Shown here piece by piece: positions 1 through 27,414 of a DNA stretch of 27,414 nt (the first letter of the stretch is position 1; each line of letters begins with the position of its first letter). The DNA comes from Opitutia bacterium (GTDB lineage Bacteria; Verrucomicrobiota; Verrucomicrobiae; Opitutales; Opitutaceae). Position numbers and translations under genes: made by a program. The stretch is taken from NCBI GenBank assembly GCA_947442255.1, contig CANEVO010000054.1, forward strand, positions 1 through 27,414, read 5' to 3'. A model generated the notes under the pieces. That model searched no databases and was not told the DNA's origin. It saw only the letters and a list, made by a program, of their open reading frames with translations.

Positions 1-2
1 AA

Positions 3-2937: not shown

Positions 2938-2989
2938 CCGCAAATGCTTGCGGTGACGGTCCCGCTGGCCAGCCGAAATGTACGACGGC

Positions 2990-3167
2990 GAACGCGCTTG
3001 GTTTGTCATTCTGAGACGGGTTACCAACGGCAATCCGTTGGGTGGCGGCTTCCCGATGACGCTTCACGCATTGTCGTTCTGAGCGCTAGCGAAGAATCCA
3101 TGCGGTATGGTTACACCGATGATATGGATTCTTCGCTCACGCTCAGAATGACAAACCAAGTGCGTTC
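2990..3167. repeat. Nested inverted repeat of the TTGTCATTCTGAG type
   Basis: The outer arms 2990-3015 and 3142-3167 are inverted copies of 26 bases with a single mismatch. An inner pair, about 3071-3101 and 3122-3153, shares the core TTCTGAGCG..AGCGAAGAATCC and would fold into a long hairpin with a loop of about 20 bases. The phrase TTGTCATTCTGAG therefore occurs three times, twice forward and once inverted. I recall similar CATTCTGAGCG..AGCGAAGAATC repeats in intergenic regions of many unrelated bacteria. It lies between the divergently transcribed aminopeptidase and cytochrome/propeller genes, in a 420-base spacer that otherwise shows no gene. Confidence 0.85.
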
Positions 3168-3358
3168 TTCGGCCGCCTACTGAAACTTCACCTCCCGCCC
3201 TCCCTGTTCGAATCAATGACAGGCAGCGCAGCCTTTTCCCTTCCCCCGGCTGCTCCTAGCTCGAATCTCCGATAACGTTGTGCCCCACGGTCGCCCTTCC
3301 ACTCTCTGTCCTTTGCGCCTTCACGATTACCCAGCCACCAACGTTTAAAATCACGGCC

Positions 3359-6606: not shown

Positions 6607-6726
6607 GCTGATTGGGTCGCCGAAACCCCGCCGCCAACGCGAGCGGAAAAATGCGCCCCAAACCGGTTTGTCATCTAATGGAGGACAAACACCCGGGTGG
6701 GAATGGCATCTCCCCGTCGTCGCCGG

Positions 6727-6752
6727 AGTGCCGGTCTCCGGCCGGCGGGAGC
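6727..6752. repeat. GCCGGTCTC-type palindromic repeat, copy 1 (diverged)
   Basis: GCCGGTCTCCGGCCGGC is an imperfect palindrome of the same kind as those at 8447-8472 and 25676-25746. It lies in the spacer upstream of the SGNH hydrolase gene. It is diverged, but the shared core GCCGGTCTC is exact. Confidence 0.6.
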
Positions 6753-6903
6753 CATGATGATCAACGGGCCCGATGACCCGAGGAGGGACGCAGGCTTACT
6801 GCGCCCTCGTGCGCGCCCAATCCGGTTAGGAGTACGGTAACTGAGGGATTGCCTCGGTATCTTGGTGGTTCAACGCCTGATTGGCTCCGGCCCAATCCGG
6901 GTG

Positions 6904-6959
6904 AACCACAAAGACACAGAGAGCACAAAAAACACTCCGGCCTTTGTGCCTTTGTGGTT
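6904..6959. repeat. AACCACAAAG inverted repeat next to the hemG stop
   Basis: AACCACAAAG at 6904-6913 pairs perfectly with CTTTGTGGTT at 6950-6959, and the pairing extends imperfectly inward (ACACAG against CTTTGTGCC). I know this AACCACAAAGNCACAAAG type as a dispersed intergenic repeat in many bacterial genomes. The hairpin begins a few bases after the hemG TGA stop on the minus strand, so it could help end that transcript or protect its 3' end. It has no T-run typical of an intrinsic terminator. Confidence 0.75.
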
Positions 6960-6962
6960 AAT

Positions 6963-13191: not shown

Positions 13192-14346
13192 ATGAATCGT
13201 CTCACCCTGCTTCGCTGCGCGGCGCTCGTCGCCGTCCTCGCCCCGACCCTCTTGCTGCCGGCCTTCGCTGCTGACGCCCGGCCGCGGCCGCCCACCCGAC
13301 CGGCCAATGGCCCCGGTGCGCCCGTCTTCACGCCGGCCGGCATCAAATCGGGCGAGGCCGCGAAACTCGAGGGTGCCCCGGGGGCGAACCCGCCCGTCAA
13401 CGCGGACGGCGACTTCATCATCGGGCCCGTCTATGTGCCGGCCCCGGAGTTAACGGTGGTCGAAGGCGTGCCGCGCGGCACCGTGCACCGGCTCACGATG
13501 AAGTCGGAGGACAGCAAAATTTTCCCCGGGATCACGAAGGTGCCACCGGGTGGCCCCGACAATTACATGCCGCCGGATCTGACCAAGGTGCAGACCTGGC
13601 CGAAGCCCTACACGCGGTCTGTGACGGTCTACGTGCCGGCGAACTACGTGGCAGGGACGCCGGCGCCGCTGCTCGTGATGCAGGACGGACCGGACAACAA
13701 CCTGCCCGTCGTCCTTGATAATCTCATCGCGCAGCGGCGCATTCCCGCACTCGTCGCGGTGATGATCCAAAACGGCGGCGGCGACGCCCAGGGCAGCCAG
13801 CGCGGTCTCGAATACGACACGATGTCCGGCCTCTACGCGCAGTTCGTCGAGGCCGAGGTGCTGCCTTTCGTGGAGCAGAACTGCGGGGTGAAAGTTTCCA
13901 GGGATCCCGAGGCCCGCGCGACGATGGGCAACAGCTCCGGCGGCGTGGCCGCGTTCACCATGGCCTGGTATCATCCCGAGCTCTATCGGCGTGTCATAGC
14001 CTACTCGGGCACGTACGTGAATCAGCAATCACCGTTCAACTCCGAGACGCCAGGCGGCGCGTGGGAGTATCATCGGAAGATCATTCCGAACAGTCCGCGG
14101 AAGCCGATCCGGCTGTGGATGCAAGTCGGAGATCGGGATCTCCTGAATCCGAATACACTCCGCGACGAGATGCACGACTGGGTCGGGGCGAATCACCGGA
14201 TGGCCGCGGTCCTGAAGGCCAAGGGCTATCACTACCAATACGTTTTCTCCCTCGACGCCGGTCACAGCGACCGGCCCGTGAAAGCGCAGACCCTGCCGCA
14301 GGCGTTGGAGTGGGTCTGGCAGGGATATGGAAAAAGCGGAAAGTAG
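13192..14346 (+). CDS. Secreted alpha/beta-hydrolase esterase (enterochelin esterase-like)
   Basis: The protein has 384 residues with a signal peptide (MNRLTLLRCAALVAVLAP, cleaved near AFAAD) and then a proline-rich linker. The catalytic domain is of the putative-esterase family (PF00756 type, as in Fes/esterase D). The nucleophile elbow is GNSSGG with Ser248. The acid is in VGDRD (Asp314 or Asp316) and the base is probably His358 in DAGHSD. Relatives cleave siderophore, feruloyl or acetyl esters; which applies here is not visible. It follows the DUF1552 gene in the same direction after a 127-base spacer holding an inverted repeat, so it may be transcribed separately. Confidence 0.88.
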   Translation: MNRLTLLRCAALVAVLAPTLLLPAFAADARPRPPTRPANGPGAPVFTPAGIKSGEAAKLEGAPGANPPVNADGDFIIGPVYVPAPELTVVEGVPRGTVHRLTMKSEDSKIFPGITKVPPGGPDNYMPPDLTKVQTWPKPYTRSVTVYVPANYVAGTPAPLLVMQDGPDNNLPVVLDNLIAQRRIPALVAVMIQNGGGDAQGSQRGLEYDTMSGLYAQFVEAEVLPFVEQNCGVKVSRDPEARATMGNSSGGVAAFTMAWYHPELYRRVIAYSGTYVNQQSPFNSETPGGAWEYHRKIIPNSPRKPIRLWMQVGDRDLLNPNTLRDEMHDWVGANHRMAAVLKAKGYHYQYVFSLDAGHSDRPVKAQTLPQALEWVWQGYGKSGK

Positions 14347-14349
14347 GGC

Positions 14350-15516
14350 TCAGCCCGCGATCCGCTGCACCGTCCACCAGAGGCCGAATCCGGCGATCGC
14401 AACGGAGGCCGGCACGGCGACCAGCTTCCGGTAAAGGTCTTCGCGCCTCAGCCAGCGCGTCGCGAGCCAGGCAAGGCTGATGACGCCGATCTGGCCGAAC
14501 TCGACGCCAAGGTTGAACCCAAGCAGCCCGACCATCAGCGAGGTCGCAGGGAGATTCAATTCCTGGAGGGCGCCCGCGAAGCCGAGACCATGAACGAGGC
14601 CGAAGACAAACACCACAGCCAGTCGCCCGGGGGAATACTTGGGCCGGAAAATGTTCTCCAACGCGATCACCGCGATGCTGGCGGCAATCACCGGCTCGAC
14701 CACGGCACCCGGGATGGACACCCGGCCCAGCGTCGCGAGACCGAGCGTCAGCGTATGGGCCACGGTGAAGGTCGTGACCTGCAGGAGCAGCGGTCGCCAT
14801 TGTCGGCTCAGGAGAAACAGGCCGAGGACGAAGAGCATGTGATCCCACCCGAGCGGGATGACGTGCACGAAGCCCTGCCGGATGAAATCGACGAACGTCT
14901 CCCACATCCCACCCGAGACGCCGACCGACCCGGCCACCGGCGTCGTGGCAAGGACGCCGCCGAGATTCGTCAGATCGAGCGTGTAGCTCGACTCGCCGGG
15001 AAAGAGCACGTTCACCCGCTGCACCTGCTGGGCGCCCAGAGTGTTGACCAGGACGATGCTGTACTTGCCCTGGGGACGGGCCTCGATCCGGAACCCGTTC
15101 AGACCGGCCGCCAGTCGCGTCGTCCAGCGCCCGGTCAGCACCACGGGGTCGTCGGGCAGCCGCAGTTCACCGCCACCCATGCCGGTGAAACTGAATTGAA
15201 AGTCCGGCAGGAACTGGCCGGTCGGCTCGAAATAATAGGCCACGGAGTCGGTCGCGAACGTCCGGGCGTGTTCAATCAACTCGGCGCGCCGGCCGGGCGG
15301 AAGTTTCTCGAACTCGGCCTGCACGAGGTAGGGATCGGTGTTCGGATCCGCCGCCGAAAACCGGACATCGATCTCAATCTCGATCCGGGCCTGGCCGTCC
15401 AGGTCGAAGAAACCACGCACCGGAATGTCCGGAATCGGATGCGCTCCCAGACGTGCCATCACGCCGAGGAGCAGCAGGAGCAACGGCCACCGGCCAGGGG
15501 TTAACACCGGAAACAT
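14350..15516 (-). CDS. HupE/UreJ family membrane protein (second type)
   Basis: The protein has 388 residues. After a signal peptide (PLLLLLLGVMARLGA, then HPIPD) comes an extracytoplasmic domain of about 180 residues, then six or seven membrane helices from about residue 207. The histidine motifs of this family are clear: GFVHVIPLGWDHMLF at about 215-229 (His218, Asp225, His226), FTVAHTL with His254, and FGLVHGLGFAGAL with His309. HupE and UreJ relatives are nickel permeases linked to hydrogenase and urease. This longer form with an N-terminal domain is widespread without such partners, and none is visible here, so the metal role is uncertain. The gene ends 3 bases from the convergent esterase gene. 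The ATG at 15516 gives a good signal peptide. Confidence 0.87.
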   Translation of the reverse strand: MFPVLTPGRWPLLLLLLGVMARLGAHPIPDIPVRGFFDLDGQARIEIEIDVRFSAADPNTDPYLVQAEFEKLPPGRRAELIEHARTFATDSVAYYFEPTGQFLPDFQFSFTGMGGGELRLPDDPVVLTGRWTTRLAAGLNGFRIEARPQGKYSIVLVNTLGAQQVQRVNVLFPGESSYTLDLTNLGGVLATTPVAGSVGVSGGMWETFVDFIRQGFVHVIPLGWDHMLFVLGLFLLSRQWRPLLLQVTTFTVAHTLTLGLATLGRVSIPGAVVEPVIAASIAVIALENIFRPKYSPGRLAVVFVFGLVHGLGFAGALQELNLPATSLMVGLLGFNLGVEFGQIGVISLAWLATRWLRREDLYRKLVAVPASVAIAGFGLWWTVQRIAG

Positions 15517-15820
15517 GCTGTGGTCTTGTCAGCCGGTCCGAGCTGAGTCAGCAGAATTTCGGCCGCGGCATCGCGGCGGCGTTCGCGCCGAAGCCCATTG
15601 GTGTAGGGCTCCGCCCGTCGGCAGGCCCCAAATCCACGAGGTAGCGGGCCCGTTGCGAACGACAAACCCTGCAATCATCGTCGATCTGTTAAATCGCCCC
15701 CCGGCGATCCTAGGCCACCCGCCGCTTGCATTCCCCTGGGCACGCCGTAGGGTCACCGGTCTCCCGGGATTAACCCGGAGTTACCCCTCGAAGCCCACGA
15801 CAGTCCTAAACCATACTAAA
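15517..15820. other. Divergent spacer between the HupE-like gene and the small secreted protein
   Basis: This 304-base divergent spacer should hold promoters for both neighbours. I see GC-rich short hairpins (for example GGGCTCCGCCC at about 15607) and an A/T-rich stretch just before the ATG at 15821, but no -35/-10 pair I would defend. The longer open frames that cross it in the plus direction lack a start of their own and run into the small secreted protein gene. Confidence 0.45.
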
Positions 15821-16114
15821 ATGAAGAAAATCATCGCCCTGTTTGTTGCCTCCATCATTGCCGCCGGTTCGGCCCAGGCCATGTGCGGCAAGAAGGTCAC
15901 CGATTCCGGCACGCTCAAATCCTATAACAAGGATTCGAAGTCCATCGTCGTCCAACTCGCCGGCAGCACCGCCGAGATCACCCTCACGCCAAGCACCGAG
16001 ACCAAGGACGCCACCGGCAAGGTTGCGAAGCTCGAAGATCTCATCGGCAAGTCCGTCACGGTCGTCAGCGAGCACAAGAAGGCCGACTCCGTTCAGGAAG
16101 CGAAGAAGAGCTAA
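15821..16114 (+). CDS. Small secreted protein of unknown function
   Basis: The protein has 97 residues. A textbook signal peptide (MKKIIALFVASIIAAGSAQA, residues 1-20) is followed by a mature part of 77 residues beginning MCGKK. The mature part is lysine- and threonine-rich with alternating hydrophobic residues (SIVVQLAGSTAEITL, KSVTVVSEH), suggesting a small beta-barrel or OB-like fold. There is one Cys just after the cleavage site, not in a lipobox. I do not recognise the family. The ATG at 15821 is chosen because the frame upstream (to 15338) is antisense to the HupE-like gene and the signal peptide begins exactly here. A strong intrinsic terminator follows 24 bases after the stop, so it is probably a single-gene transcript that may be well expressed. 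Confidence 0.85.
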   Translation: MKKIIALFVASIIAAGSAQAMCGKKVTDSGTLKSYNKDSKSIVVQLAGSTAEITLTPSTETKDATGKVAKLEDLIGKSVTVVSEHKKADSVQEAKKS

Positions 16115-16137
16115 GACTGCTTCGCCTGTCATTTTCC

Positions 16138-16167
16138 AACCCGGTGGCTCGCGCCGCCGGGTTTTTT
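16138..16167 (+). terminator. Intrinsic terminator of the small secreted protein gene
   Basis: The 10-base stem AACCCGGTGG (16138-16147) and CCGCCGGGTT (16154-16163), with a CTCGCG loop and one G-T pair, is followed directly by T residues, giving a run of six T at 16162-16167. It sits 24 bases after the stop at 16114. Confidence 0.9.
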
Positions 16168-16203
16168 GTGCCCGGACGGAGCGACGCAGTTTGTGCGCGC
16201 ACC

Positions 16204-16234
16204 AAAAGCGCCGAAGCCAGCCTGGCTTCGGCGC
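16204..16234 (-). terminator. Possible minus-strand terminator or palindromic repeat
   Basis: GCGCCGAAGCCAG (16208-16220) and CTGGCTTCGGCGC (16222-16234) are perfect 13-base inverted arms around one base. Read on the minus strand, the hairpin is followed by TTTT (16204-16207), as in an intrinsic terminator. No accepted minus-strand gene lies just upstream, only the coding-like stretch at 16241-16460. It could instead be a REP-like palindrome. Confidence 0.4.
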
Positions 16235-16583
16235 AGAGAATCTCGCGGACGCCTGACTCGGCGGCGCCGATGGTCGGCGATTTGCCGGTCTTGGCGTTCT
16301 GTGGCTCGATCTTCGCCCCATCGTCACGCGGCGAACCCGGCTGCAGCGGATCGATCGTCATCCCGGGGCTCACTTTGGTGACGCGCTGGGTATCCGGGAC
16401 GATGGCGATGGCCCGGCCAATCTGCTCCGGTGGCGACGCGGCGGACCCGGTTCGAGCCTTTTATCCGGGTCGAAATGGAACCCTTCACCCGACTGCGCCC
16501 TCGGACTACGACTCCCGCGTGTCGGACACGAATGACGATAATGTGCTGTTCCCCCCGCGCGCCGCACCCGATACTCACCTTTC
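16235..16583. other. Spacer with an unexplained coding-like minus-strand frame
   Basis: No standard gene is found between the hairpin and the DUF6172 gene. On the minus strand, from 16460 downwards, an open frame with mostly G/C third positions reads ASPPEQIGRAIAIVPDTQRV and onwards to KTGKSPTIGAAES near 16260. It is preceded by a TAA stop at 16461-16463 and has no ATG; the first usable start is a GTG at 16373. It may be a gene remnant, a gene with a start I cannot see, or chance. Confidence 0.35.
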
Positions 16584-16880
16584 ATGCAGAAAACGTTTCC
16601 GCTCCAGATTCCCGGCAAGGTCGACGCCCGCGTGGTGGAGGCCGTGAAAGGTGACGTGCGCAAGTACGTTAAACGCGAGCGCCGCAAGAAACTTCCGGAG
16701 GGCTTCACCGAGTGGACTTTTGCCTGTAAGGCCGGCCCGGACCGCGCCACCGCCGCCACCGCCGCCGTTGACGAACTCAGCGCCGTAATTGACGCCGCCG
16801 TCGCGGCGGGCGCCACCGCCCTCTACATCGAGATCATCGCGCGGCCCGGCATCCGGCCGCCCCGCATCGCTACCCTGTAG
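16584..16880 (+). CDS. DUF6172 family protein
   Basis: The protein has 98 residues and matches DUF6172 along its length as I recall it. It begins MQKTFPLQIPGKVDARVV, then has a basic segment VRKYVKRERRKKLPEGF, then WTFACK, and ends with a conserved YIEIIARPG segment. It has no signal peptide, membrane span or known catalytic motif, so it is a small basic cytoplasmic protein of unknown function. It is followed after about 30 bases by the DUF2293 gene on the same strand, so the two could be co-transcribed. ATG at 16584 is the natural start because the conserved N-terminal motif begins there. Confidence 0.85.
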   Translation: MQKTFPLQIPGKVDARVVEAVKGDVRKYVKRERRKKLPEGFTEWTFACKAGPDRATAATAAVDELSAVIDAAVAAGATALYIEIIARPGIRPPRIATL

Positions 16881-16911
16881 TGCGATCACTCATACCTTGG
16901 TCTTGCCACCT

Positions 16912-17622
16912 GTGCTCCCTTCCGCCCCGGTCGCCCGCGAAGTCCGACCATCTCCGCTACCCCGCCAGGTGTTGAACGAGCGAGGCGCCCTCGAACTTGT
17001 GCCAGACGACTGGGATTTGCTGCCGCCGGGCGACGCTGCCCTGAGCCGGCGGATCAAGGAGGATGGGCAGACGATCACCGTGATTGAGGTGAAAGGCCGC
17101 AAGAGGTTCTCCCGCGGGATTTGGGCGCCGGCGGCGCGAATTGCAGCCTTGCGGACGGAACGCGCCGCCGAGTGCAAAAATCCCGCCTATCTCCGCCGCC
17201 TGGGCGCCAGCCGCCAGCGCCGCGTCGCCGCGGAAGAGGACTATGCGGAGGACTTCACCGCGGCCGTGGTAACGTTCCTGAATTTTCATCCCCAGCACGC
17301 GCTGCTCGCGGACACCCTGGCCGGGCTAATCGGGGCTCATGCGACGCCCGTGGGCAGCGGCACCGTGGCGCGGACCCGGCGCATTCCCCTCCCCGCTCGG
17401 GCCGAGGCGGCCACCATCGCCTGGCTGCGCCATCAAACCACCGGCTATGATCGGATGAGCATCCCCCGGGAAAAAGGCCGGCGCCGGGAAGTTCGCCGGA
17501 TGCTCGCGCAGCGTTCCGCCCAGATGCTCGGCCAGTATCGCTCCGGCCAGACCGTCGACCGCGACCGCTGTCCGCTCTACTCCGCCCTCGTACCGGCCCT
17601 GCCCACGCGGACGATTGGATGA
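16912..17622 (+). CDS. DUF2293 domain protein
   Basis: With the GTG at 16912 the protein has 236 residues. The C-terminal part (about 115-210) matches DUF2293: an FTAAVVTFLNFHP segment, then the hallmark IAWLRHQTTGYDRM near 169-182, and a basic region REVRRMLAQRSAQMLGQYR. The N-terminal half holds a short strand-rich segment (ITVIEVKGRKRFSRGIWAP) of unknown role. Many basic residues and no signal peptide suggest a nucleic-acid-associated cytoplasmic protein, which is only an inference. The start is uncertain: TTG at 16897 and GTG at 16969 are also in frame, and no ATG precedes the conserved part. The stop overlaps an ATG (ATGA at 17619-17622) that opens the next, apparently frameshifted gene. 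Confidence 0.75.
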   Translation: MLPSAPVAREVRPSPLPRQVLNERGALELVPDDWDLLPPGDAALSRRIKEDGQTITVIEVKGRKRFSRGIWAPAARIAALRTERAAECKNPAYLRRLGASRQRRVAAEEDYAEDFTAAVVTFLNFHPQHALLADTLAGLIGAHATPVGSGTVARTRRIPLPARAEAATIAWLRHQTTGYDRMSIPREKGRRREVRRMLAQRSAQMLGQYRSGQTVDRDRCPLYSALVPALPTRTIG

Positions 17623-17847
17623 CGATCGCGGCGCCGGCAGAGGTAATGCCCGCCGTCGCCTCCGTATCACTCCTCCGCAAATCGCTTTGCCGGGACCCGG
17701 CGGGCCCACGCCCGCCTCCATTATGTCGAGGAGCGGGATGTCGATGAGCTGGTCGAGATGCTGTCCCAGCGCTATGTCGTTGCCGACCTCAAGCGACGAC
17801 AGGCGGGGCTCACGAACCATCCATTCCAGATCGAGCGCTCCGGCTGA
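17619..17847 (+). pseudogene. Probable frameshifted small gene after the DUF2293 gene
   Basis: An ATG at 17619 overlaps the DUF2293 stop (ATGA) and opens a frame beginning MTIAAPAEVMPAVASV. Around 17660-17670 a coding-like sequence continues in the +1 frame: RRAHARLHYVEERDV, then DELVEMLSQRYVVADLKRR, ending NHPFQIERSG with TGA at 17845-17847. The second part has strongly G/C third positions and a balanced amphipathic composition, but no start codon of its own after the upstream TAA at 17644 apart from an internal ATG late in the frame. Joining the frames gives a product of about 75 residues. I do not recognise the family. It could be a decayed gene, a programmed shift or a sequencing error. 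Confidence 0.4.
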
Positions 17848-17983
17848 GCGGAAGGGTGCAGACGGAGGTCTCTCAGCGCCGATTGAGGCGAAACCGGTGG
17901 GAATGCCCGTCGTCGACCGGCCCTCAATTCACAAGGGAGAACGGGCCTGGAGCGAGCGACGGCCGACACCCATGGACCGTCTG
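17848..17983. other. Short spacer before the convergent sulfatase-fold gene
   Basis: These 136 bases lie between the frameshifted small gene (plus) and the stop of the LTA-synthase-like gene (minus). Long frames crossing here on the plus strand are antisense to the latter gene. I see no hairpin with a T-run and no gene. Confidence 0.5.
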
Positions 17984-20020
17984 TCAGGGTGCGGCGTACC
18001 GTTTGATTTCTGCCGCGGTCAACTCCCGCTGGCGGCCGTGCTTGAAGAGCCAGCTCGCGGTTTCGTAGTAGGCCATCGCGTCTTCGATCAGATTTGGATC
18101 AGCCGCCGCCGGCATCATCTCCTTCTTCCCAAATTCGTAACGGAACGTGGTGGCACTCCGCACCGGCTTCAGCACTGCCACTTCGTCGCCGCGGTAGAGA
18201 CCGAGCTTCTGGTAGTTGCCGATCAAGGCCCGCCCATGGGCCGCCGCCGCGGGTCCCAACACATCGCGCCCAAAGAAGCGGCTCGGATAACTCCAGCCCA
18301 GCAGCCCGAGGAGCGTCGGAGCATAGTCGATCTGGCTGGTGAGCGTGCCGACCACTCCGGGCTTCACCTGGCCGCCGGGCGCATAAATCAGGAGTGGAAT
18401 ATGGTAACGGTCGACCGGCAGCTCCGTCCGGCCCGCGCTCGAGGCGCAATGGTCGGCCACGATGACAAAGATCGTATTCTTGAACCACGGCCGATCCGCC
18501 GCGGCGCGCAGCAGTTCCCCGATCGCATGGTCGGTATATTTCACGCCGCCGGAGCGCCCCGAGGTCTTCGACGGCAGATCGATCTTGCCCTCCGGATACG
18601 TGAACGGACGGTGGTTCGACGTCGTCATGACGAAGTGGAAGAAAGGCTTGCCCACGGCATAATCCCGGTCCGCCTCGCGCAGCGCCCATCGGAAGAGGTC
18701 GCCGTCGCACGCGCCCCACGCATTCGCGAAGGTGATGTCACCCTTGACCACGAGATTGCGGTCCACGACCCGGTAGCCGTTCCCCCCAAAGAAGTGATTC
18801 ATGTTGTCGAAGTACCCATAGCCGCCGTAAATAAATGCCGTCTTGTACCCGCGGCTGCGAAACACGGAGCCAAGCGTGAAGAGGTTTTCGTTGTTCGGCC
18901 GCTTCACGAGTGAACGGCCGGGCGTGGGCGGAACCGACAGCGTCAGGGCCTCCATGCCCCGATCCGTCCGCGTGCCCGTGGCGTAGAACCGATCGAAGAC
19001 CAGGGAATGAGCGGCAAGCGCATCGAGGTTCGGCGTCAGCCCATCCTTGTTCCCGTACCGTCCAAGGAACTCCGCGCTGAGGCTCTCGACCGTGATTTGG
19101 ATGACATTGAGCCGCTGCTCGGGTCCGGGATGGCGCACCATCCGCAGCAAATCGCGGGGATCATCCGCGAGCGGCGTGTCCCGGTCCGGCGCCAGCAGGC
19201 CGTGCATCCGCTCGAAGGCGGCATCCACCGACATGGTGGGATAAAACTCGTCGTAATCGAGCTGGTTGCCGCGAAAGGCCGCGAAGAGCGACCAGAGGCC
19301 GTCCTTCGCCAGCTCCCGGTTGTAACTGTTGGCCAACGCGGGCAGGTGGGTTTCGCTCAGGCCGAGACCGAGAATCAGGGCCCCCACAGTCCAGGCCGCC
19401 GCCCCTCGCCAGCGGGCGGTCACCGGCGTCGCGGCCGTCGCCAGCCACCGGTTCACAGCGCCCGTCCGGTGGAGCAGCCAGTAACCGAGGCAAGTCAGCA
19501 GGAAGAGTCCCGCATAGATCGCCGGCATCGGGTACGATTCGCGAATGTTACCGATTACCTCGGTCGTGTAGACGAGATAGTCGACGGCGATGAAGTTGAA
19601 GCGGACGCCAAACTCCTCCCAGAAGAACCACTCCGCGACCGCCCCAAAGAGCAGGCCGTAGAGAATCGCCATCAGGACGACGTGCGCCACGCCGCGCCCC
19701 CACGCCCACTCGAAGAATCGCGCCGGCAGCACAGCCAGTGCGATGGCCAGCGGCGCCGCCCAGCAAAGGCTCGCCGCGAAATCGAACAGCGTTCCCCAGG
19801 CAAAGGCGGCGACCAGGCTCAGATCCCACGACACTTCCCGCGCCGAGTACATCAGCAAGGCGACCCGGGTCAGCCCGCCGACGACGATCGCCATGCTCAG
19901 CGCGAGGACGACGCCCCCGTGCCGGCCCGCCACGCCACCACGCCACCGCCCTCCGGACTGAAGGACAGGCAGGCTTGGCGGCGCAGGTGCGATAGACTCG
20001 CTTGGGGTCAGGCTGAACAT
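17984..20020 (-). CDS. LTA synthase-like membrane phosphoglycerol/phosphoethanolamine transferase (sulfatase fold)
   Basis: The protein has 678 residues. The N-terminal half carries about five membrane helices (roughly 36-58, 66-98, 110-130, 165-183 and 207-223). An extracytoplasmic sulfatase/alkaline-phosphatase-fold domain starts near residue 303. Metal and active-site residues of the LtaS/MdoB family are visible: Glu312 in QITVESLSAEF, nucleophile Thr352 in GTRTDRG, His470 in TTSNHRPF, and Asp523-His524 in IVADHCASS. Members transfer phosphoglycerol or phosphoethanolamine groups onto cell-envelope glycans or lipids. A Gram-negative-type member probably modifies periplasmic glucans or envelope polymers, but the acceptor is unknown. 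The next gene upstream on the same strand is 107 bases away. The start at 20020 leaves a proline-rich cytoplasmic leader before the first helix. Confidence 0.88.
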   Translation of the reverse strand: MFSLTPSESIAPAPPSLPVLQSGGRWRGGVAGRHGGVVLALSMAIVVGGLTRVALLMYSAREVSWDLSLVAAFAWGTLFDFAASLCWAAPLAIALAVLPARFFEWAWGRGVAHVVLMAILYGLLFGAVAEWFFWEEFGVRFNFIAVDYLVYTTEVIGNIRESYPMPAIYAGLFLLTCLGYWLLHRTGAVNRWLATAATPVTARWRGAAAWTVGALILGLGLSETHLPALANSYNRELAKDGLWSLFAAFRGNQLDYDEFYPTMSVDAAFERMHGLLAPDRDTPLADDPRDLLRMVRHPGPEQRLNVIQITVESLSAEFLGRYGNKDGLTPNLDALAAHSLVFDRFYATGTRTDRGMEALTLSVPPTPGRSLVKRPNNENLFTLGSVFRSRGYKTAFIYGGYGYFDNMNHFFGGNGYRVVDRNLVVKGDITFANAWGACDGDLFRWALREADRDYAVGKPFFHFVMTTSNHRPFTYPEGKIDLPSKTSGRSGGVKYTDHAIGELLRAAADRPWFKNTIFVIVADHCASSAGRTELPVDRYHIPLLIYAPGGQVKPGVVGTLTSQIDYAPTLLGLLGWSYPSRFFGRDVLGPAAAAHGRALIGNYQKLGLYRGDEVAVLKPVRSATTFRYEFGKKEMMPAAADPNLIEDAMAYYETASWLFKHGRQRELTAAEIKRYAAP

Positions 20021-20127
20021 GCGGGTGCGATTTACAGCGGACGCTGATGTTCGATGCGATTCAGGGTGGATTTCATAAATAACGATGGACTTCCTTGCTC
20101 AAGAAATATCGCGACGGCGCCGCGCGC

Positions 20128-21570
20128 TCACATCCCCATCAGCTTCATCGCGCCCCCGCGCACCCCGGACCAGAACCGCCGGGCCGACTTGGCCTCGTCG
20201 CCATCCGCCACCTGCTGGCAGAGAAAAATTCCCTGTCCGGTGAAGAGATCGTCGAAGAGTGGATTCATCCCGCGATAGTAACTCCAGAACGTCTCCGCGC
20301 GCGCCGGCCGGTAGTCGAGATTCGGCGTGAAACCGATCGTCGCATCCTGGTTGGTCCGCCGGGCCGCGACCTCGCCCCCGGCGCCCGCCACCAATCGCTC
20401 GACGCGCACGCCGCGCCGGCCCGCCACAATCAGCCGGCAGGGCCCGACGAACTCGAAGAAGCGAAATTGGAGCGTCACCCACGACTGCCAGCGGAAGAAC
20501 TGCCACCGCTTGCGCATCACGAGTCGCGTGCGGTGGTCGGCGAGGACGACGCCGGCAAGGAAGCTCGGTCGCAGGATCAGCGAGGTGCCCTCGACGAGGG
20601 AGATCACCGCAAGTTCGCTGTGCGGATCGGACTGGTTCGATAGCGTGAGTCGCCGCTCGGCCTCGCCGGCATTGGCCAATTCAATCAATTCGACGAGGCC
20701 CGCCGCCAGGCAGGTGAACGGCACGCGCCAGTCGAGGAGGTACCGGCCCTTCCGCCGGAGACCTTCGTCGGAGGCCTGGAGAAATTTCTCCTTCACCCAC
20801 AAGCGCTCGCCCGGCCCGAGAGGGATCTCGGCCGAGACCTGACTGACGCTAACGGCCGGCAATTCCGCCGCCTCACGCTGCAGCCGCACCGGACGACTGC
20901 GGGCAATATGTGGCGCCACGATGAAGTAGAGCCCCAGTTTGCCGAGAGTCGGGCCAAAGAAATAGAACAGCAGCGCCGTGAGCAGCCACCACTTGGTCGC
21001 CATCTGCCACGGCTCGCGCCCGATCGGATGATTCCAGGTGCGCTCGAGATAATGCTGCACGCGTGACTGCTGCGCCTCCAATTCCTGCAGCCGCACCTCC
21101 ACCTTGCCGAGGGCGATCTCGAGTCCGTCGCGTTCCCAAGTCGTGCGGGTGAATTCCTGCTGGATCGCTTCCCGCCGTTGGGTGACGTGGAGCCGCAGCG
21201 CGGTCATCTTCTGGATCTGTTCCGCGTTCGCCTTCTGTTGCTCCGGATTGCCCACGTAGCGATCCCAGGCGCTTTCCAATTTCCTCAGCTGCGCGATCAC
21301 CCGGTCGGCCTGCTTGCCGCGCTCCTCCTCCGCCGAAATTTCGGCCGAAATCCTGGTCATTCGTTTTTCCACATCAGCCATCGCCTCGCGAACCTTCGTA
21401 CGCTCGCCGTTGACGGAGCGAATGACCTCCTGCCGCCAAAGGTCGAAATCCACGTTGTCCTTCAGGAAGAGCCACAGGCCGCCCGCGGCGAGACTCAGGC
21501 CCGCGATCAGGATCACCGCGGCGAATTTTTGGCCGAGCCAGCGCAGAAAATCCCACAGCACACCGATCAT
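20128..21570 (-). CDS. Coiled-coil membrane protein with AIM24-like C-terminal domain
   Basis: The protein has 480 residues. It has a membrane helix at about 16-36, a long charged coiled-coil-like region at about 50-175 rich in Glu, Arg, Gln and Lys, a second membrane helix at about 193-219, and a beta-rich C-terminal region. The segment containing ELAVISLVEGTSLILRPSFL and FRFFEFVGPCRLIV resembles AIM24/TIGR00266-type proteins. The function is unknown; the arrangement suggests an extracytoplasmic coiled coil between two membrane spans with a cytoplasmic AIM24-like domain. Start choice: the frame runs back to 21720, but the ATG at 21570 is preceded by GGAGGG about 8 bases upstream and gives a membrane helix right at the N-terminus. 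The earlier part looks non-coding. Confidence 0.7.
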   Translation of the reverse strand: MIGVLWDFLRWLGQKFAAVILIAGLSLAAGGLWLFLKDNVDFDLWRQEVIRSVNGERTKVREAMADVEKRMTRISAEISAEEERGKQADRVIAQLRKLESAWDRYVGNPEQQKANAEQIQKMTALRLHVTQRREAIQQEFTRTTWERDGLEIALGKVEVRLQELEAQQSRVQHYLERTWNHPIGREPWQMATKWWLLTALLFYFFGPTLGKLGLYFIVAPHIARSRPVRLQREAAELPAVSVSQVSAEIPLGPGERLWVKEKFLQASDEGLRRKGRYLLDWRVPFTCLAAGLVELIELANAGEAERRLTLSNQSDPHSELAVISLVEGTSLILRPSFLAGVVLADHRTRLVMRKRWQFFRWQSWVTLQFRFFEFVGPCRLIVAGRRGVRVERLVAGAGGEVAARRTNQDATIGFTPNLDYRPARAETFWSYYRGMNPLFDDLFTGQGIFLCQQVADGDEAKSARRFWSGVRGGAMKLMGM

Positions 21571-21818
21571 GCCCACGTCCCTCCACCCGGACACGCGCCG
21601 TCCTTCGCCAGGCTGACCCGGTGCCACGTTCCCTGCGTCAATCGATGTAATCCCCGTTTCATAATGGTCCGTTGCACTCGATTCCCTCCCGGGAAGCGCG
21701 CGTATTCGCCAATGATTCAAACCGCGGCTTCCCGGAAGCCAATTGCTAAACCGGCAACTCTGGCCAGCGTGAAGGCGCTCAGTTCCTACCGCCTGTCCAA
21801 GCCCGACTTCCCGGTTCC
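21571..21818. other. Divergent spacer between the coiled-coil gene and gdhA
   Basis: This 248-base divergent spacer has GGAGGG just upstream of the ATG at 21570 (minus) as the only clear ribosome binding site. I find no convincing promoter pair for the glutamate dehydrogenase gene and no Shine-Dalgarno sequence before its ATG. Frames crossing the spacer are arginine/proline-rich and unlikely to be genes. Confidence 0.45.
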
Positions 21819-23093
21819 ATGTCCAAAGCCATCGTCTCTTCCCTTTACGACTCCGAGGTGTTTCGGATGGCCTGCCGACAGTTCGACAAGGCCGCCGATG
21901 CCATCAGCCTTCCGGATACGCTCCGCGACCGCACGAAGTATCCGCGCCGCTGCCTCGCGGTTTCACTGCCGATTCGCCGGCAGGACGGCAGCGTCACCGT
22001 TTTCGAGGGCTATCGCGTACAGCACAACCTCTCGACGGGTCCTTCGAAGGGCGGCATCCGCTTTCACTAGAGCGTGACCCTCGGTGAGGTCGCCGCGCTC
22101 TCGATGTGAATGAGTTGGAAAACGTCGCTCGTCGGTCTCCCCTATGGCGGTGCCAAGGGCGGCGTGATCGTCGATCCCCACACGCTTTCCGAGACTGAAC
22201 TCGAACACCTCTCCCGTCGCTACATGCAGGAGATGGTGAACTTTCTTGGCCCACACGTCGACGTGCCAGCGCCGGATGTGGGCACCAACGAGAAGATCAT
22301 GGGCTGGATGATGGACACCTAATCCAACCATGTCGGCCACCTCGAACCCGCGATCGTGACCGGCAAGCCAATCGCGCTCGGCGGATCGCAGGGCCGCCGC
22401 GAGGCCACCGGCGAGGGGGTCGCCTACCTCGTGAAACAGTACCTTCGCGACCTGAAGGTGCCGATCGGCAGGGCCACGGTCGCGATCCAAGGCTTCGGCA
22501 ACGTCGGCAGCGAAACCGCCCGCGCCCTCGTCGGGTACGGCGCGAAGATCATCGCCATTTCGGATCACACGGGCGCCTTCCATAATCCCAAAGGGATCAA
22601 CATCGAAAAGGCGCTCACCTACGTGCGCTCCCAGAAAGTCCTGCGCGACTTCGAAGGCGGCGATCCGATCACGAACGCGGAACTGCTCGAGCTGAAGTGC
22701 ACCGTGCTGATCCCGGCGGCCCTCGAGCGAGTCATCACCGAGAAGAACGCGGCCCAATTGAAATGCCGGATGCTGGCCGAGGCGGCCAATGGCCCGACGA
22801 CGAATGCCGCGGACTAGATCATCGACGAGCGCGGCGACATCGAGGTCATCCCGGACGTCCTCTGCAACTCCGGCGGCGTCATCGTCTCCTACTTCGAGTG
22901 GCTGCAGAATCTCTCGAACTTCTACTGGGACCGCGAGGAGGTGATGACGAAGCTCTTCGCGATGCTCGACAAGGCGAAGCTCTCAGTCGACGCCCAGAAG
23001 AAGAAGTTCCAGTTCAGCCGCCGGCTCGCCGCCCTCACGCTCGGCATCAAGCGCGTCGCCGACGCGAAACAGAGCCGAGGGTTGTTCCCTTAA
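21819..23093 (+). pseudogene. gdhA: Glutamate dehydrogenase with four in-frame stop codons
   Basis: One frame of 425 codons covers a full-length Glu/Leu/Phe/Val dehydrogenase, which interconverts glutamate and 2-oxoglutarate with NAD(P). It is interrupted by TAG at codon 84 (22068), TGA at codon 97 (22107), TAA at codon 168 (22320) and TAG at codon 333 (22815), with no frame change. Preserved features are the substrate-binding [10 protein letters not shown] (Lys77), the catalytic GGAKGG (Lys113), APDVGTNE (Asp153), the coenzyme motif GFGNVGS at 225-231, and the normal C-terminus ending SRGLFP. The stops fall where relatives, as I remember them, have Gln or another one-substitution residue, Trp (before MSWK), Tyr (MMDTYS) and a polar residue. 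Without suppression no full enzyme is made. Alternatives are a recent pseudogene or sequence errors. The family call is certain; the status is not. Confidence 0.9.
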
Positions 23094-23259
23094 TCGCCAC
23101 CCAATCCGTGGGCCGGGCGCGGTCTCTGCGTCCGACCATCGAGCCTCGGGCCGCCACTCGCTCACGCTCGCAGCCACGGATATCGTCTTTCGCCTCCCAC
23201 CACAGGCTTGATCGCCGGTGAGTCCCGTGCGACATCACCGCCGCGCCGCCGGCCGCCCC

Positions 23260-24114
23260 ATGAACCTTCCTGCCCTAACCTGCGTCGCGCTCGCCTGCCT
23301 GGCCGGCCCGTCGCTGGTTGCCGGGCCCGTGGACGAGGGCATCGTGATCGCGATGCGTTTGTCGGAGCGTCCGAACTATAGCTGGACTTCCACGGTCGAC
23401 GACGATGCCCGCACCTACGACATCGTGGGCAAGACCACGCCGGACGGTTTCACCCAAGCCAGGATGCCAATCGTGAATTCCGTGCGCCGCCGACTCGGAC
23501 GCGGGGCCACCGACAACCTCGTGGACGCCATCTATCGCGGCAACGTGGAGTGTGTCCTCGCCACCGATACGGGCTGGATGACGATCGACGAGCTACCGAT
23601 GGTCCGGGACAGCGAACCGATCCTGGGCACCGACGGGATGGGCCTGCCCGGTTTGATCCTCACCATCCCCGGCGCCGCGACAGCCGGGGGCGGATCAATC
23701 CTCCCCATGCCAAAGGTCGACGACGATCGCGGCCGTCGCGCCTACAGCAACCTCCAGATGGGCATCAGCCACCCGCATGAGGATCTGGGTGTCATCGTCA
23801 GCAGCGGCACGAATCTGCGGGCGGACGGCGATGTCCTCACCGGCTCGTTGACCGAACTCGGTGCCCAACTCCTCCTCGTGCGCGACGGCCAGCCCGAGAT
23901 CACGCCCGAGCAGGGTGCGGGCACTTTCACGATCTGGATGCGCGCGGGAATGGTGCAGCGATATCAGGTGAGGCTGAAGGGTGTGCTCGCGATCAAAATC
24001 GGTCTTGGCACCAAGCGGGTCACCGTGAACCAGACGACCCTCACCGTGATCCGCGACGTGGGCACGACGCGCGTCGAAGTTCCCGCCGAAGCGAGACGAA
24101 AACTGGGTGGCTGA
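23260..24114 (+). CDS. Secreted protein of unknown function
   Basis: The protein has 284 residues. The frame runs back to 23218, but the ATG at 23260 begins a clear signal peptide (MNLPALTCVALACLAGPSLVAG). The mature protein is rich in beta-prone segments and glycine: NYSWTSTVDDDARTYDIVGK near the N-terminus, a Gly/Pro-rich middle (LPGLILTIPGAATAGGG), and a C-terminal half with LLLVRDGQPEITPEQGAG and a threonine/valine-rich end. No catalytic motif, repeat or membrane anchor is seen, and I do not recognise the family. It follows the disrupted glutamate dehydrogenase after 166 bases and precedes a repeat-filled spacer, so it is probably a single gene. Confidence 0.65.
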   Translation: MNLPALTCVALACLAGPSLVAGPVDEGIVIAMRLSERPNYSWTSTVDDDARTYDIVGKTTPDGFTQARMPIVNSVRRRLGRGATDNLVDAIYRGNVECVLATDTGWMTIDELPMVRDSEPILGTDGMGLPGLILTIPGAATAGGGSILPMPKVDDDRGRRAYSNLQMGISHPHEDLGVIVSSGTNLRADGDVLTGSLTELGAQLLLVRDGQPEITPEQGAGTFTIWMRAGMVQRYQVRLKGVLAIKIGLGTKRVTVNQTTLTVIRDVGTTRVEVPAEARRKLGG

Positions 24115-24372
24115 GGGCTGGCCAGCGAGTCAGCCTGGGTTGGTAGTCCCGCCTTCAGGCGGAATGGCTTGGTTCGGCGCGCCGCGGGATTCCAGAGAAC
24201 TGTTTCTCCAAGGTGGAGGGCCGAGCTCGGCCCTCCCCAGAATCATCTCGCCCCTCCAAAGACGTGCAGGGGCGTGGCCCTTGTCTTCGGGCCAAACACT
24301 CTTCCGCGCCCTCGGCGCCGGCCCCCCTCCGCCTTCGCGCCTTTTCGCGAACTTCGCGGTTCAACTGCCGCC
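24115..24372. repeat. Repeat-filled spacer with a 22-base perfect palindrome
   Basis: This convergent spacer lies between the secreted-protein gene and the DUF1015 gene. It contains a small hairpin, CCGCCTTCAGGCGG (24149-24162), following GTAGTC, and a perfect 22-base palindrome centred on GGGCCGAGCTCGGCCC (24215-24236). A tract at about 24325-24361 (TTCGCGCCTTTTCGCG, then ACTTCGCGGTTC) resembles degenerate dispersed repeats known from other genomes. The two hairpins could end transcription from either side, although neither has a long T-run. No gene is supported here. Confidence 0.65.
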
Positions 24373-25587
24373 TCAGAACGTGTGGATGAACAATCCCGAC
24401 CGGAGCTTCGGTTCGAACCAGGTGCTCTTCGGCGGCATGATCTGCCCGGCATCGGCTATGTCCATCAACTGCGCCAACGTCACCGGATAGAGCGAGAACG
24501 CCACGCCGCCTTCGGCATCGACGCGCTTGACCAACTCGCCGGTTCCCCGGATGCCGCCGACGAAGTCGATGCGCTTGCTGGTGCGGGGATCGTCCACGCC
24601 GAGCAACGGCGCGAGCAGCCGATCCTGGAGCACGCTCACGTCCAGCCGGCCAACCGGATCGGCCTTGGGATCGACGGGGCATTTCAGCCCGTACCACTTT
24701 CCGTCTAGATACATCCTGATCTCGCCCACTGCGCCGGGGGTCGGCGACGCGTCTTCCCGCAAGCCGAAGGTGGCCTTCACCTGCGCGAGGAAATCCGCGG
24801 GCGACCGGCCGTGGAGATTCGGCACGATGCGATTGTACGGCAGAATCTTGAGTTCACTCGCGGGGAAGAGCACGCACAGGAACCAATTGTACTCCTCGCC
24901 TCCGGTGTGCTGCGCGTTCCGCTCGCGGCGCAAGCGGGCGACGCGCGCGGCGCTCGCCGCCCGATGGTGGCCGTCGGCAATGTAGGTGACCGGGACCGCC
25001 CCAAAGGCCTGGACCCAACCAGCCGGATCGCTGATTCGCCAGACGGTGTGGCGGATCCCGTCGGGTGCCGTGAAATCGTGCTGCGGCTTTTCCTTCGTCT
25101 TCGCCTCCACCATGGCCGTGACCGCGGCGGCATCGCGATAGGTGAGAAACACCGGGCCGGTGTCGGCGCTGAGCGTATCAATCAAACGGGTGCGGTCGTC
25201 CTCCTTGTCCTTGCGCGTCTTCTCATGCTTCTTGATCAGGCCGGCATCGTAATCGTCGACGTGACAGCCGGCGACGAGCCCGCGCTGGCGGTGGGCGCCC
25301 ATCTGCTGCTGGCAAATGTAGAGGCTCGGACCTGCCTCCCGCACCAGCACGCCGGCCTGCTGCATGGCCTGGAAATTCTCGCGAGCCCGCGCGTAGACGA
25401 CATCACTGTAGGGGTTGGTCTCGACCGGCAGATCGATCTCCGCGCGGTCGACATGCAGCAGGCTGTGCGGCCGGCCGGCTGCCAGGGCCGCGGCTTCCGC
25501 GGTGTTGACGACATCATACGGCACGCAGGCCACTTCGGGCGCGCGATCGGTGGGAGGAACAAGACCTTGAAAGGGATGGAGGCGCAT
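24373..25587 (-). CDS. DUF1015 family protein
   Basis: The protein has 404 residues, typical for DUF1015. It begins MRLHPFQGLVPP with PYDVV at 23-27, as in the family. The conserved basic/acidic motif KKHEKTRKDKEDDRTR is at about 119-134, and the strongly conserved YIADGHHRAASA is at about 202-213. It has no signal peptide or membrane span, so it is cytoplasmic. The family is widespread in bacteria and archaea, has no proven activity, and in some genomes lies next to serine-biosynthesis genes; no such neighbour is present here. The ATG at 25587 begins the conserved N-terminus and is accepted as the start. Confidence 0.9.
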   Translation of the reverse strand: MRLHPFQGLVPPTDRAPEVACVPYDVVNTAEAAALAAGRPHSLLHVDRAEIDLPVETNPYSDVVYARARENFQAMQQAGVLVREAGPSLYICQQQMGAHRQRGLVAGCHVDDYDAGLIKKHEKTRKDKEDDRTRLIDTLSADTGPVFLTYRDAAAVTAMVEAKTKEKPQHDFTAPDGIRHTVWRISDPAGWVQAFGAVPVTYIADGHHRAASAARVARLRRERNAQHTGGEEYNWFLCVLFPASELKILPYNRIVPNLHGRSPADFLAQVKATFGLREDASPTPGAVGEIRMYLDGKWYGLKCPVDPKADPVGRLDVSVLQDRLLAPLLGVDDPRTSKRIDFVGGIRGTGELVKRVDAEGGVAFSLYPVTLAQLMDIADAGQIMPPKSTWFEPKLRSGLFIHTF

Positions 25588-25802
25588 GGGCGTGAAAGGC
25601 CGGAGATTGTTCGGACGCCGACGTCAAAGACACGGAAAAAGCGCAAGGCGCCGCGGCATAATGGCGACGATCGAGGTAGCGCCGGTCTCTGACCGGCGAG
25701 AGCGGAGACAACCGTACGTTCCCCGCCGGTCGGAGACCGGCGCTACTCGCCGCGAGCCATTTCCCGCCCGATCGCGCCGCGGGTGAGTCGAAACGCCGCC
25801 AC
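25588..25802. other. Spacer upstream of the DUF1015 gene, with repeats
   Basis: This 215-base stretch lies between the L31 terminator and the DUF1015 start, both on the minus strand. It should contain the promoter of the DUF1015 gene, but none is clear. It holds a CAAAGACACGGAAAAAGCGC tract at about 25626-25645, similar to the dispersed CAAAGACACA-type repeat at 6904, and the inverted GCCGGTCTC repeat at 25676-25746. Confidence 0.5.
25676..25746. repeat. Inverted pair of GTAGCGCCGGTCTC palindromic repeats (copy 3)
   Basis: The 23-base arms at 25676-25698 and 25724-25746 are inverted copies differing at one base. Each arm is itself nearly palindromic (GCCGGTCTCTGACCGGC). They are separated by 25 bases. 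The same core occurs singly at 6727-6752 and 8447-8472. The paired arrangement resembles REP/BIME elements. Confidence 0.85.
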
Positions 25803-25832
25803 AAAAAAGCCCTCCCGAAACGGGAGGGCTTT
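25803..25832 (-). terminator. Intrinsic terminator after rpmE2
   Basis: A perfect 12-base stem, AAAGCCCTCCCG (25806-25817) and CGGGAGGGCTTT (25821-25832), has a three-base loop. On the minus strand it is followed by T residues, with a run of six T at 25803-25808. It lies 24 bases after the stop of the L31 gene at 25857 and ends the rpmJ-rpmE2 transcript. The stem is also T-rich on the plus side, but nothing is transcribed toward it from the left. Confidence 0.92.
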
Positions 25833-25856
25833 GAAAAGGGAAACGTGGCTCGCGTC

Positions 25857-26111
25857 TTACTTCTTCGCGGCACCGCGCTTGAACTTCGTAGTGAACTTCT
25901 CGACCCGGCCCGCGGTGTCCACGAGGCGCTTTTCGCCGGTGTAGGCGGGGTGGGAGTCCATCGTCACGTCGCGCACGATGACAAAATATTCCTGACCATT
26001 GATGTCCTCCTTGCGGGCGGACTTTATGGTGGACTTGGTGAGAAAACGACGGCCGGTTCCGATGTCGAGGAAGCAGACGTTGTTCAGGGAGGGATGTCCT
26101 TCGGCTTTCAT
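25857..26111 (-). CDS. rpmE2: 50S ribosomal protein L31, type B
   Basis: The protein has 84 residues. It matches type B bacterial L31: an N-terminal MKAEGHPSLNNVCFLDIGTG, the central SHPAYTGEKRLVDTAGRVEKF, and a basic tail ending RGAAKK. The zinc-binding cysteine set of type A L31 is absent; there is only one Cys, at about residue 13. L31 binds the large subunit near the central protuberance and bridges to the small subunit. It lies 16 bases downstream of rpmJ on the same strand and is followed by a strong terminator, so the two form one short operon. In some bacteria zinc-free L31 is made under zinc limitation; whether a zinc-type copy exists in this genome cannot be seen. Confidence 0.95.
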   Translation of the reverse strand: MKAEGHPSLNNVCFLDIGTGRRFLTKSTIKSARKEDINGQEYFVIVRDVTMDSHPAYTGEKRLVDTAGRVEKFTTKFKRGAAKK

Positions 26112-26127
26112 CGCGGTAAATGCTTAA

Positions 26128-26253
26128 TCAGCCTTGGCGCGCCTTGTAACGCGGCTCGACTTTGTTGATGACGTAAATCTTGCCCTTGCGACGCACCACC
26201 TGGCACGCCGGGTGACGCTTCTTGGCGGATTTAATGGATGACACGACTTTCAT
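26128..26253 (-). CDS. rpmJ: 50S ribosomal protein L36 (41 residues, cysteine-poor type)
   Basis: This short gene encodes 41 residues beginning [20 protein letters not shown] and ending [10 protein letters not shown]. It is a clear L36 of the longer type (YkgO-like in E. coli), with the [11 protein letters not shown] core. The usual zinc-binding Cys/His set of short L36 is reduced to one Cys (17) and one His (14), so it probably does not need zinc. L36 is a small basic protein of the large subunit that binds 23S rRNA. It is the first gene of a two-gene operon with rpmE2 (16-base gap). A promoter-like TTGACA/TATCCT pair lies just upstream, leaving a very short leader without a visible Shine-Dalgarno sequence. 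Confidence 0.95.
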
Positions 26254-26265
26254 AAAAGGGGCCAA

Positions 26266-26292
26266 AGGATAGTCCGCCCGCACCTCTGTCAA
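26266..26292 (-). promoter_or_regulatory. Sigma70-type promoter of rpmJ-rpmE2
   Basis: On the minus strand, a perfect -35 TTGACA (26287-26292) is followed after 15 bases by TATCCT (26266-26271) as the -10. The spacer is shorter than the optimal 17 bases. Transcription would start near 26259, only about six bases before the rpmJ ATG at 26253, so the message would be almost leaderless. No Zur-like palindrome is visible. Confidence 0.55.
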
Positions 26293-26305
26293 CCGAAATG
26301 TCCCC

Positions 26306-26860
26306 TCAGTTCATCTCCGGATGATCCGGTTCGCCGGCGAGGAGCCGCCACTCCGCGCCTTCACGACCCAACACGGTGCGCCACAACGAATCGTCCTGCG
26401 GATGCACCAGCAGATCCTCGGGCACGTCAGCGACGACCCAGGTTTTTTGCTTCATCTCGTTCTCGAGCTGGCCGGCCGACCACCCAGAGTACCCCATGAA
26501 GCCGCGGACATGCGTATCCTCCTCGGCCATGAGCTGCAGCGCTTTGTCCGGTTCGATTCCGAAATGGAGGCGGAATCCGTCCATCCGCGTCTGCCACGCC
26601 GCGAGGGCCAGTTTTTCCCGGTCACAGGGCCCGCCGATGAACACGGGCACGCCGGCCAGCGGGCCGAGGGCAAAGTCGCCGCTCAACTCCCCGAGGCGCT
26701 TGCCAAACGGGCGGTTGAGCACGACACCCATCGCACCCTCGGCGCCATGGGCCGACATCAGGATGACGCTCCGGCGGAAGTTCGGATCCCGCATTGCCGG
26801 ATGCGCGAGCAACAATGACCCGGCGAGGGTCTCCTTGGATGTTTTGTGACGTTCGCGCAT
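26306..26860 (-). CDS. YqgE/AlgH family protein
   Basis: The protein has 184 residues. The open frame extends to 27016, but the upstream part overlaps the deaminase gene in another frame, and the ATG at 26860 gives the family's usual start: [20 protein letters not shown], a hallmark of YqgE/AlgH (DUF179). Other conserved parts are [10 protein letters not shown], the VFIGGP motif in the middle, and [13 protein letters not shown] near 140-152. The family is cytoplasmic. In Pseudomonas AlgH was first linked to alginate regulation, but its molecular function is not settled. It follows the dCMP-deaminase-like gene by 26 bases on the same strand and is probably co-transcribed with it. Confidence 0.92.
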
Positions 26861-26886
26861 GAGCGAGGACGGACCGGCCGGTTGAC

Positions 26887-27402
26887 TCAAAGTTTCAGCA
26901 CGGCAATCCCGGCATCGGCCAGGAGCGGCGCCACCAAGGGATCGTTGAGGTAGTCGGCGCGGTACTTGATCTGCGATATGCCGGAGGCCGCGAGGATCTT
27001 CGCGCAGTTGATGCACGGATAGTGCGTGACGTATGCCACGCAGCCCTCGACCGAACTCCCGCGCCGCGCCGCATCGGCAATCGCGTTCTGCTCCGCGTGC
27101 ACCGTCGCCTGCTCGTGGCCGTCGCGCAGTCGCGAGACGTGGGGCGTCGAGGGCAGAAAACCGTTGTAGCCGGCCGCCACAAGCCGGTTGCGCCGCTCGC
27201 CGCCTGTGACGATCACGCAGCCAACGTGCAGCCGCTCGCAGTTGGAGCGGGAGGAAATCAGGACCGCCGTGGCCATGAAATACTCATCCCACGAGGGCCG
27301 GTGCGGAAAATTGCTGGCCGCCTCCGCGATTAAGTCGACGGGCAGCACAGGCACGGCGGGAACCGCCGGATGATCGGGCGCAGGCATCGCAGGGTGGCTC
27401 AT
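26887..27402 (-). CDS. Deoxycytidylate (dCMP) deaminase family protein
   Basis: The protein has 171 residues. This zinc-dependent deaminase of the cytidine/deoxycytidylate family converts dCMP to dUMP, feeding thymidylate synthesis. Zinc ligands are His102 with the proton-shuttling Glu104 in VHAEQNAI, and Cys130 and Cys133 in PCINCAK. The segment RPSWDEYFMATAVLISSRS at about 35-53 is typical of dCMP deaminases and their ComEB relatives. An N-terminal proline-rich extension of about 30 residues precedes the domain, so a later start is possible, though the ATG at 27402 is the simplest. The gene begins 12 bases from the window end, so its promoter is not in view. It probably forms an operon with the YqgE/AlgH gene. 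Confidence 0.9.
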   Translation of the reverse strand: MSHPAMPAPDHPAVPAVPVLPVDLIAEAASNFPHRPSWDEYFMATAVLISSRSNCERLHVGCVIVTGGERRNRLVAAGYNGFLPSTPHVSRLRDGHEQATVHAEQNAIADAARRGSSVEGCVAYVTHYPCINCAKILAASGISQIKYRADYLNDPLVAPLLADAGIAVLKL

Positions 27403-27414
27403 GGAATCAGCGCG

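Follow-up and report, generated by a model that had tools for sequence, protein, structure and literature searches.

An interrupted glutamate dehydrogenase gene

The stretch of DNA analysed here (27,414 nucleotides; hereafter, the window) carries a frame for glutamate dehydrogenase (GDH) at positions 21819-23093 of the forward strand, comprising 424 codons and a terminal TAA (425 codons in total). Translation of this gdh frame confirmed what the initial annotation had described, namely four internal stop codons and no frameshift. The stops are TAG84, TGA97, TAA168, and TAG333 and include three stop types, and the frame alignment with the closest relative genome compared (G001, an Opitutae MAG) contains zero indels. 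The gdh frame, its stops, and the two locus markers that flank it are as follows:

20128-21720, minus strand: divergent neighbour of gdh with no Pfam family, used as a locus marker in relatives (comparison with relatives)
21819-23093, plus strand: gdh frame, GDH family, with four interruptions (translation, Pfam, and comparison with G001)
22068-22070, plus strand: TAG, codon 84 (translation and comparison with G001 and relatives)
22107-22109, plus strand: TGA, codon 97, with ATG98 immediately after it (translation and comparison with G001 and relatives)
22320-22322, plus strand: TAA, codon 168; the next listed open frame starts from GTG180 at 22356 (translation and comparison with G001 and relatives)
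22815-22817, plus strand: TAG, codon 333 (translation and comparison with G001 and relatives)
24373-25587, minus strand: DUF1015 gene, open, used as the downstream locus marker (Pfam and comparison with G001)

Both Pfam GDH domains were found above cut-off when each stop was replaced by X, i.e. PF02812 (residues 42-169; 179.8 bits) and PF00208 (residues 188-421; 231.4 bits). Lys77, Lys101, Lys113, and Asp153, which we take to be the catalytic residues, are all present, and the active-site motifs, already called intact in the initial annotation, were read in frame and aligned to the GDH chain of PDB 1b3b, presumably a Thermotoga-type enzyme. The intact relative P0122 (residues 13-424) stood in for the window in this alignment; its motifs are identical to those of the window, and its lysine and aspartate motifs match those of 1b3b. 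The window gdh thus shares the lysine, aspartate, and nucleotide-binding motifs of 1b3b and of NCBIfam NF040817 (GdhA_Arch) but differs from both in being interrupted four times. The NF040817 score is 455.6 bits against an equivalog cut-off of 750, so that this name does not apply, and the several GDH equivalog models that match the frame all do so below their cut-offs. By its domains and motifs, the gdh of the window is assigned to the Glu/Leu/Phe/Val (ELFV) dehydrogenase family. With its four internal stops, it is not a standard-code open reading frame capable of yielding GDH; translation would stop after codon 83.

The divergent neighbour, the true start of which is probably near residue 50, is conserved in 16 of the 26 relatives searched (all 16 of the same genus) and also in G025. 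A palindrome-like repeat lies at 23147-23180, ~54 bases after the gdh stop, and at least 49 further places in G001 carry this repeat (scoring covered 40 of 189 candidate stretches). Several are arranged as inverted pairs separated by 26-138 bases, which is REPIN-like; five Y1 transposase matches in G001 could be RAYTs. At the other end of the window, positions 231-3196 have no counterpart at the corresponding place in G001, where contig C402 matches window 1-230 (at 3947-4175) and window 3197-5953 (at 4340-7096). This segment is close to a tRNA-Asn gene (3-77) and contains an 865-codon frame with no Pfam match. A plasmid DNA search gave 163 records, of which none covered 80% of the query and 162 showed 60-80% identity.

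Divergence from the nearest relative

G001 is 94% complete with a size of 3.9 Mb and shares 33% of the sampled 31-letter words of the window. Positions 13322-27412 match one G001 contig in two blocks (97.9 and 98.0% identity), and at the same locus, with 98% DNA identity, the gdh of G001 is intact and has no stops. The window gdh thus combines disabling mutations with an intact orthologue at the same locus in its nearest relative, as do other bacterial nonsense pseudogenes, and the intact copy at 98% identity indicates that the inactivation in the window is recent. No second GDH was found in the 94% complete G001, which has no other PF00208 protein, and a second copy serving as backup was rejected on this ground.

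Between the window and G001, gdh shows 29 codon differences: 19 synonymous (including the terminal stop), 6 missense, and 4 nonsense. Nine other window genes together show 238 codon differences, i.e. 178 synonymous and 60 missense with 0 window stops. These genes are those for an esterase and PSD (both in part), HupE, DUF2293, a sulfatase, DUF1015, AlgH, a deaminase, and a cytochrome-domain protein; the compared frames were open by listing, such that broken genes elsewhere in the window (e.g. in 1-3277 or 15517-16788) would escape notice in this count. Window stops therefore make up 4 of 29 differences in gdh versus 0 of 238 in the nine genes (Fisher P = 1.1e-4). Left out of the count were frames 299+, 432+, 278+, and 471- (probably not genes) as well as 298+, 237+, and 530-. 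Five of these frames (530-, 299+, 432+, 278+, and 471-) contain stops in G001, and 278+, which has no Pfam match and overlaps 471-, has one window stop absent in G001. The AlgH frame, as delimited here, is interrupted in G001 by a stop at codon 34, upstream of the conserved domain; this stop is not counted in the 238.

Polarization on 8 outgroups placed 7 synonymous, 4 missense, and 4 nonsense changes on the window branch and 9 synonymous and 2 missense changes on the G001 branch, with 2 synonymous sites left unassigned by the outgroup votes. The neutral mutation opportunity in gdh is 74% missense, 24% synonymous, and 2% nonsense under the observed spectrum and 73% missense and 3% nonsense under a uniform spectrum. 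The neutral expectation is thus 23 to 37 missense changes per nonsense change, versus 4:4 on the window branch. At the best-fitting inactivation time, the probability of at least four nonsense changes given at least one is 1.4e-4 to 6.4e-4, a value obtained from small counts on a finding that was picked because it was striking, and all of these nonsense statistics assume the window-G001 substitution spectrum or a uniform one. These nonsense and missense counts bear out the view of the initial annotation that an ageing pseudogene would not usually show such a pattern. Compared with other bacterial nonsense pseudogenes, the window gdh differs in having four stops, hardly any missense changes, no indel, and an excess of nonsense changes over the neutral expectation.

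The missense:synonymous ratio of gdh (6:19) is similar to that of the nine other genes (60:178), any relaxation of selection after the inactivation being too recent to show in it; this similarity suggests that selection acted on gdh through most of the divergence and that the gene was inactivated late. Three local causes of the stops were considered and rejected. Two of the four stop changes are transitions of the deaminase type, but the other two are transversions, which argues against deaminase hypermutation. The differences are unclustered (codons 238-291 hold 9 of the 29; P = 0.24 for any 54-codon stretch), which argues against a local hot spot or a recombination tract, and the absence of window stops from the nine other genes argues against a window of poor quality.

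gdh and ammonia assimilation among relatives

The residues at the stop positions were read from the gdh loci of relatives. Among 80 named relative loci, 67 give a match of exactly 1272 bases and form the set for residue counts, which takes in G001 itself (L040) and L118 (with a stop at codon 54). Codon 97 encodes Trp and codon 168 Tyr in all 67, codon 84 encodes Gln in 61, and codon 333 encodes Lys in 46 and Arg in 19. At codons 97 and 168, a stop has thus replaced an invariant residue of this set, whereas all six missense positions vary among its members. Other lesions among the 80 loci comprise one stop and two missing codons in L087, the single stop in L118, and a frameshift in L110.

A gdh match was obtained in 30 of the 38 relatives searched, and 19 of the 25 same-genus genomes contain a full-length, uninterrupted gdh. 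In G002 and G006, the gene runs off the end of a contig, and no gdh match was found in G017 and G022 (85 and 73% complete, respectively). G007 retains a gdh remnant (L123:9804-9977) in which approximately codons 1-45 are joined in frame to codons 401-422 and the start codon is gone. This remnant adjoins the same divergent neighbour as the window gdh and was placed by that one neighbour only, DUF1015 not being found in G007. In G025, DUF1015 and the divergent neighbour lie 1.7 kb apart with other frames between them, and no gdh was found between these markers or elsewhere in the genome. On this comparison of loci, the genus can lose gdh, and at least two further members have shed the gene from this same locus.

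The glutamate synthase domain PF01645 was found in 32 of the 38 relatives (weakly in G034) and extends over nearly the whole length in G001, G007, and G025. Glutamine synthetase (PF00120) was matched in 31 of the 38; within the genus, the match is strong in 3 of 25 members (G003, G017, and G019), weak (27-66 bits) in 19, and absent from 3 (G001, G020, and G022). The weak matches would represent a divergent, perhaps type II-like, glutamine synthetase; GSIII was found in 0 of 5 relatives searched. Two separate searches found no glutamine synthetase in G001, which may reflect an assembly gap. The initial annotation had warned that loss of gdh would affect nitrogen assimilation unless another dehydrogenase or GS-GOGAT exists. 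This worry is only partly eased by the full-length glutamate synthase of G001 and by the existence of relatives without gdh; it persists with regard to glutamine synthetase, the lack of which in the nearest relative makes a ready backup less likely. Where gdh has been lost, ammonia probably enters through GS-GOGAT, which may serve the window strain as well, but a complete GS-GOGAT pathway near this strain stays putative because G001 gave no glutamine synthetase match.

In Blochmannia (ant endosymbionts), gdhA is reported to be absent from every sequenced member, and B. vafer is also without glutamine synthetase (PMC3017870). Blochmannia offers a parallel for a bacterial group without GDH, but it differs in that the gene is absent there, whereas the frame in the window is still readable and the nearest genome keeps gdh.

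Origin of the four stops

Judged from its sequence, the window gdh is most likely dead and without function. Among the options of the initial annotation, a very recent pseudogene is the best, given the intact copy of G001 at 98% identity. The gene would have been inactivated so recently that little else has decayed, and the enzyme would be dispensable in the window strain, with GS-GOGAT as the expected other route for ammonia. The number of stops, which is above the yield of ordinary decay, is the sole unusual part of the find. We favour the explanation that several null alleles that arose independently were brought together in one sequence, either through recombination among members of the population or because strains were merged during assembly. 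That the window holds such pooled null alleles in a recently dead gdh, in a strain close to G001, has in our estimation about an even chance of being right, and it is favoured over both neutral decay and an artefact.

A protein collection, in which 584 of 1147 candidates matched and 120 of these matches were listed, hinted at further null alleles. Among the matches listed, the two nearest truncated proteins, P0002 (245 aa; 97% identity) and P0030 (116 aa; 98% across 68% of the query), share a start at GTG180, which is the earliest start listed downstream of TAA168, and they differ in their mixture of window-type and G001-type residues. P0002 carries Lys at position 333, and P0030 no longer matches GDH in its final residues. 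P0002 lies on a contig of 15,838 bases and P0030 on one of 911 bases. The two may be fragments cut by contig ends: among the matches listed, 11 of 14 other 245-aa proteins are on contigs of 956-1520 bases. We therefore rejected the truncated proteins as proof of other null alleles and regard them as a hint only, since contig ends yield similar fragments. At positions 256 and 411, all four combinations of residues occur among the outgroup, G001, the window, and P0002, a pattern at two sites involving one database protein that would be compatible with recombination or repeated change. The same collection contains the intact allele P0122, which represents a 14-member cluster. When the first 96 codons served as the query, 51 of 58 candidates matched, and the 37 of these 51 that were read included no close relative of the window protein with an end at 83, 96, or 167; in more distant relatives, the end lies at 167 in P0247 and P0252 and at 96 in P0261. 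P0247 (167 aa) and P0017 (253 aa) are GDH pieces that are both from 14291-base ENA contigs, which suggests that another species likewise has a split gdh, with a stop at codon 168.

Neutral decay within a single lineage would mean that one stop inactivated gdh and that three others followed at random while missense changes were still few and indels absent. This scenario needs nothing unusual and agrees with the missense:synonymous ratios, which point to a recent death. Nonsense changes constitute 2.6% of the nonsynonymous opportunity under the observed spectrum, however, and at least three further stops among seven changes would have a probability of ~6e-4; a single-lineage model with a functional phase followed by a dead phase reached a best joint probability of only 1.3e-5 to 1.1e-4. 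This misfit is softened by the finding having been picked because it was striking, and we consider plain decay a fair but less probable alternative to pooled null alleles. The excess of nonsense over missense changes, given by neither drift nor purifying selection, together with the nine other genes free of window stops, could also point to stops that exist in no cell and were introduced into the consensus or sequence file. About 74% of random sequencing errors would be missense, so such error fits no better than drift, and only a targeted alteration would produce the pattern; natural gdh losses occur in sister genomes, and truncated close relatives starting after codon 168 are present in the protein collection, although contig ends could explain the latter. 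An artefact seems unlikely.

The production of a working enzyme by read-through of the stops or re-initiation of the pieces appears very improbable. The intact active-site motifs, the position of ATG98 directly after TGA97, and the ordinary missense:synonymous ratio would fit such recoding. Within this single gene, however, all three stop types would have to be decoded as amino acids, although TAA, TAG, and TGA each terminate other window genes and no window stop relative to G001 occurs in the nine genes compared; read-through, which the initial annotation had listed, is not supported on these grounds. In addition, the frame is open in 19 of 25 genus members, and no stop type was found to serve as sense across the window genes examined. 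The only two tRNA genes in the window are for tRNA-Asn and tRNA-Gly, and a suppressor tRNA was accordingly rejected for the window.

Overall, a conserved gene has most likely been lost here, in a real and recent event of a kind already known. A more far-reaching version, in which loss of gdh was favoured in the Opitutae population so that independent null alleles rose and were shuffled into haplotypes with up to four stops, is speculative, and we hold it only tentatively. A central nitrogen enzyme lost in one strain and kept by a 98%-identical relative offers a chance to watch gene loss, and, if the four stops are null alleles pooled by recombination, the locus would provide a natural and testable example of selection favouring the loss of a metabolic gene. 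Otherwise, the gene would be a young pseudogene of the ordinary sort and a warning against scoring this lineage as GDH-positive on a homology match.
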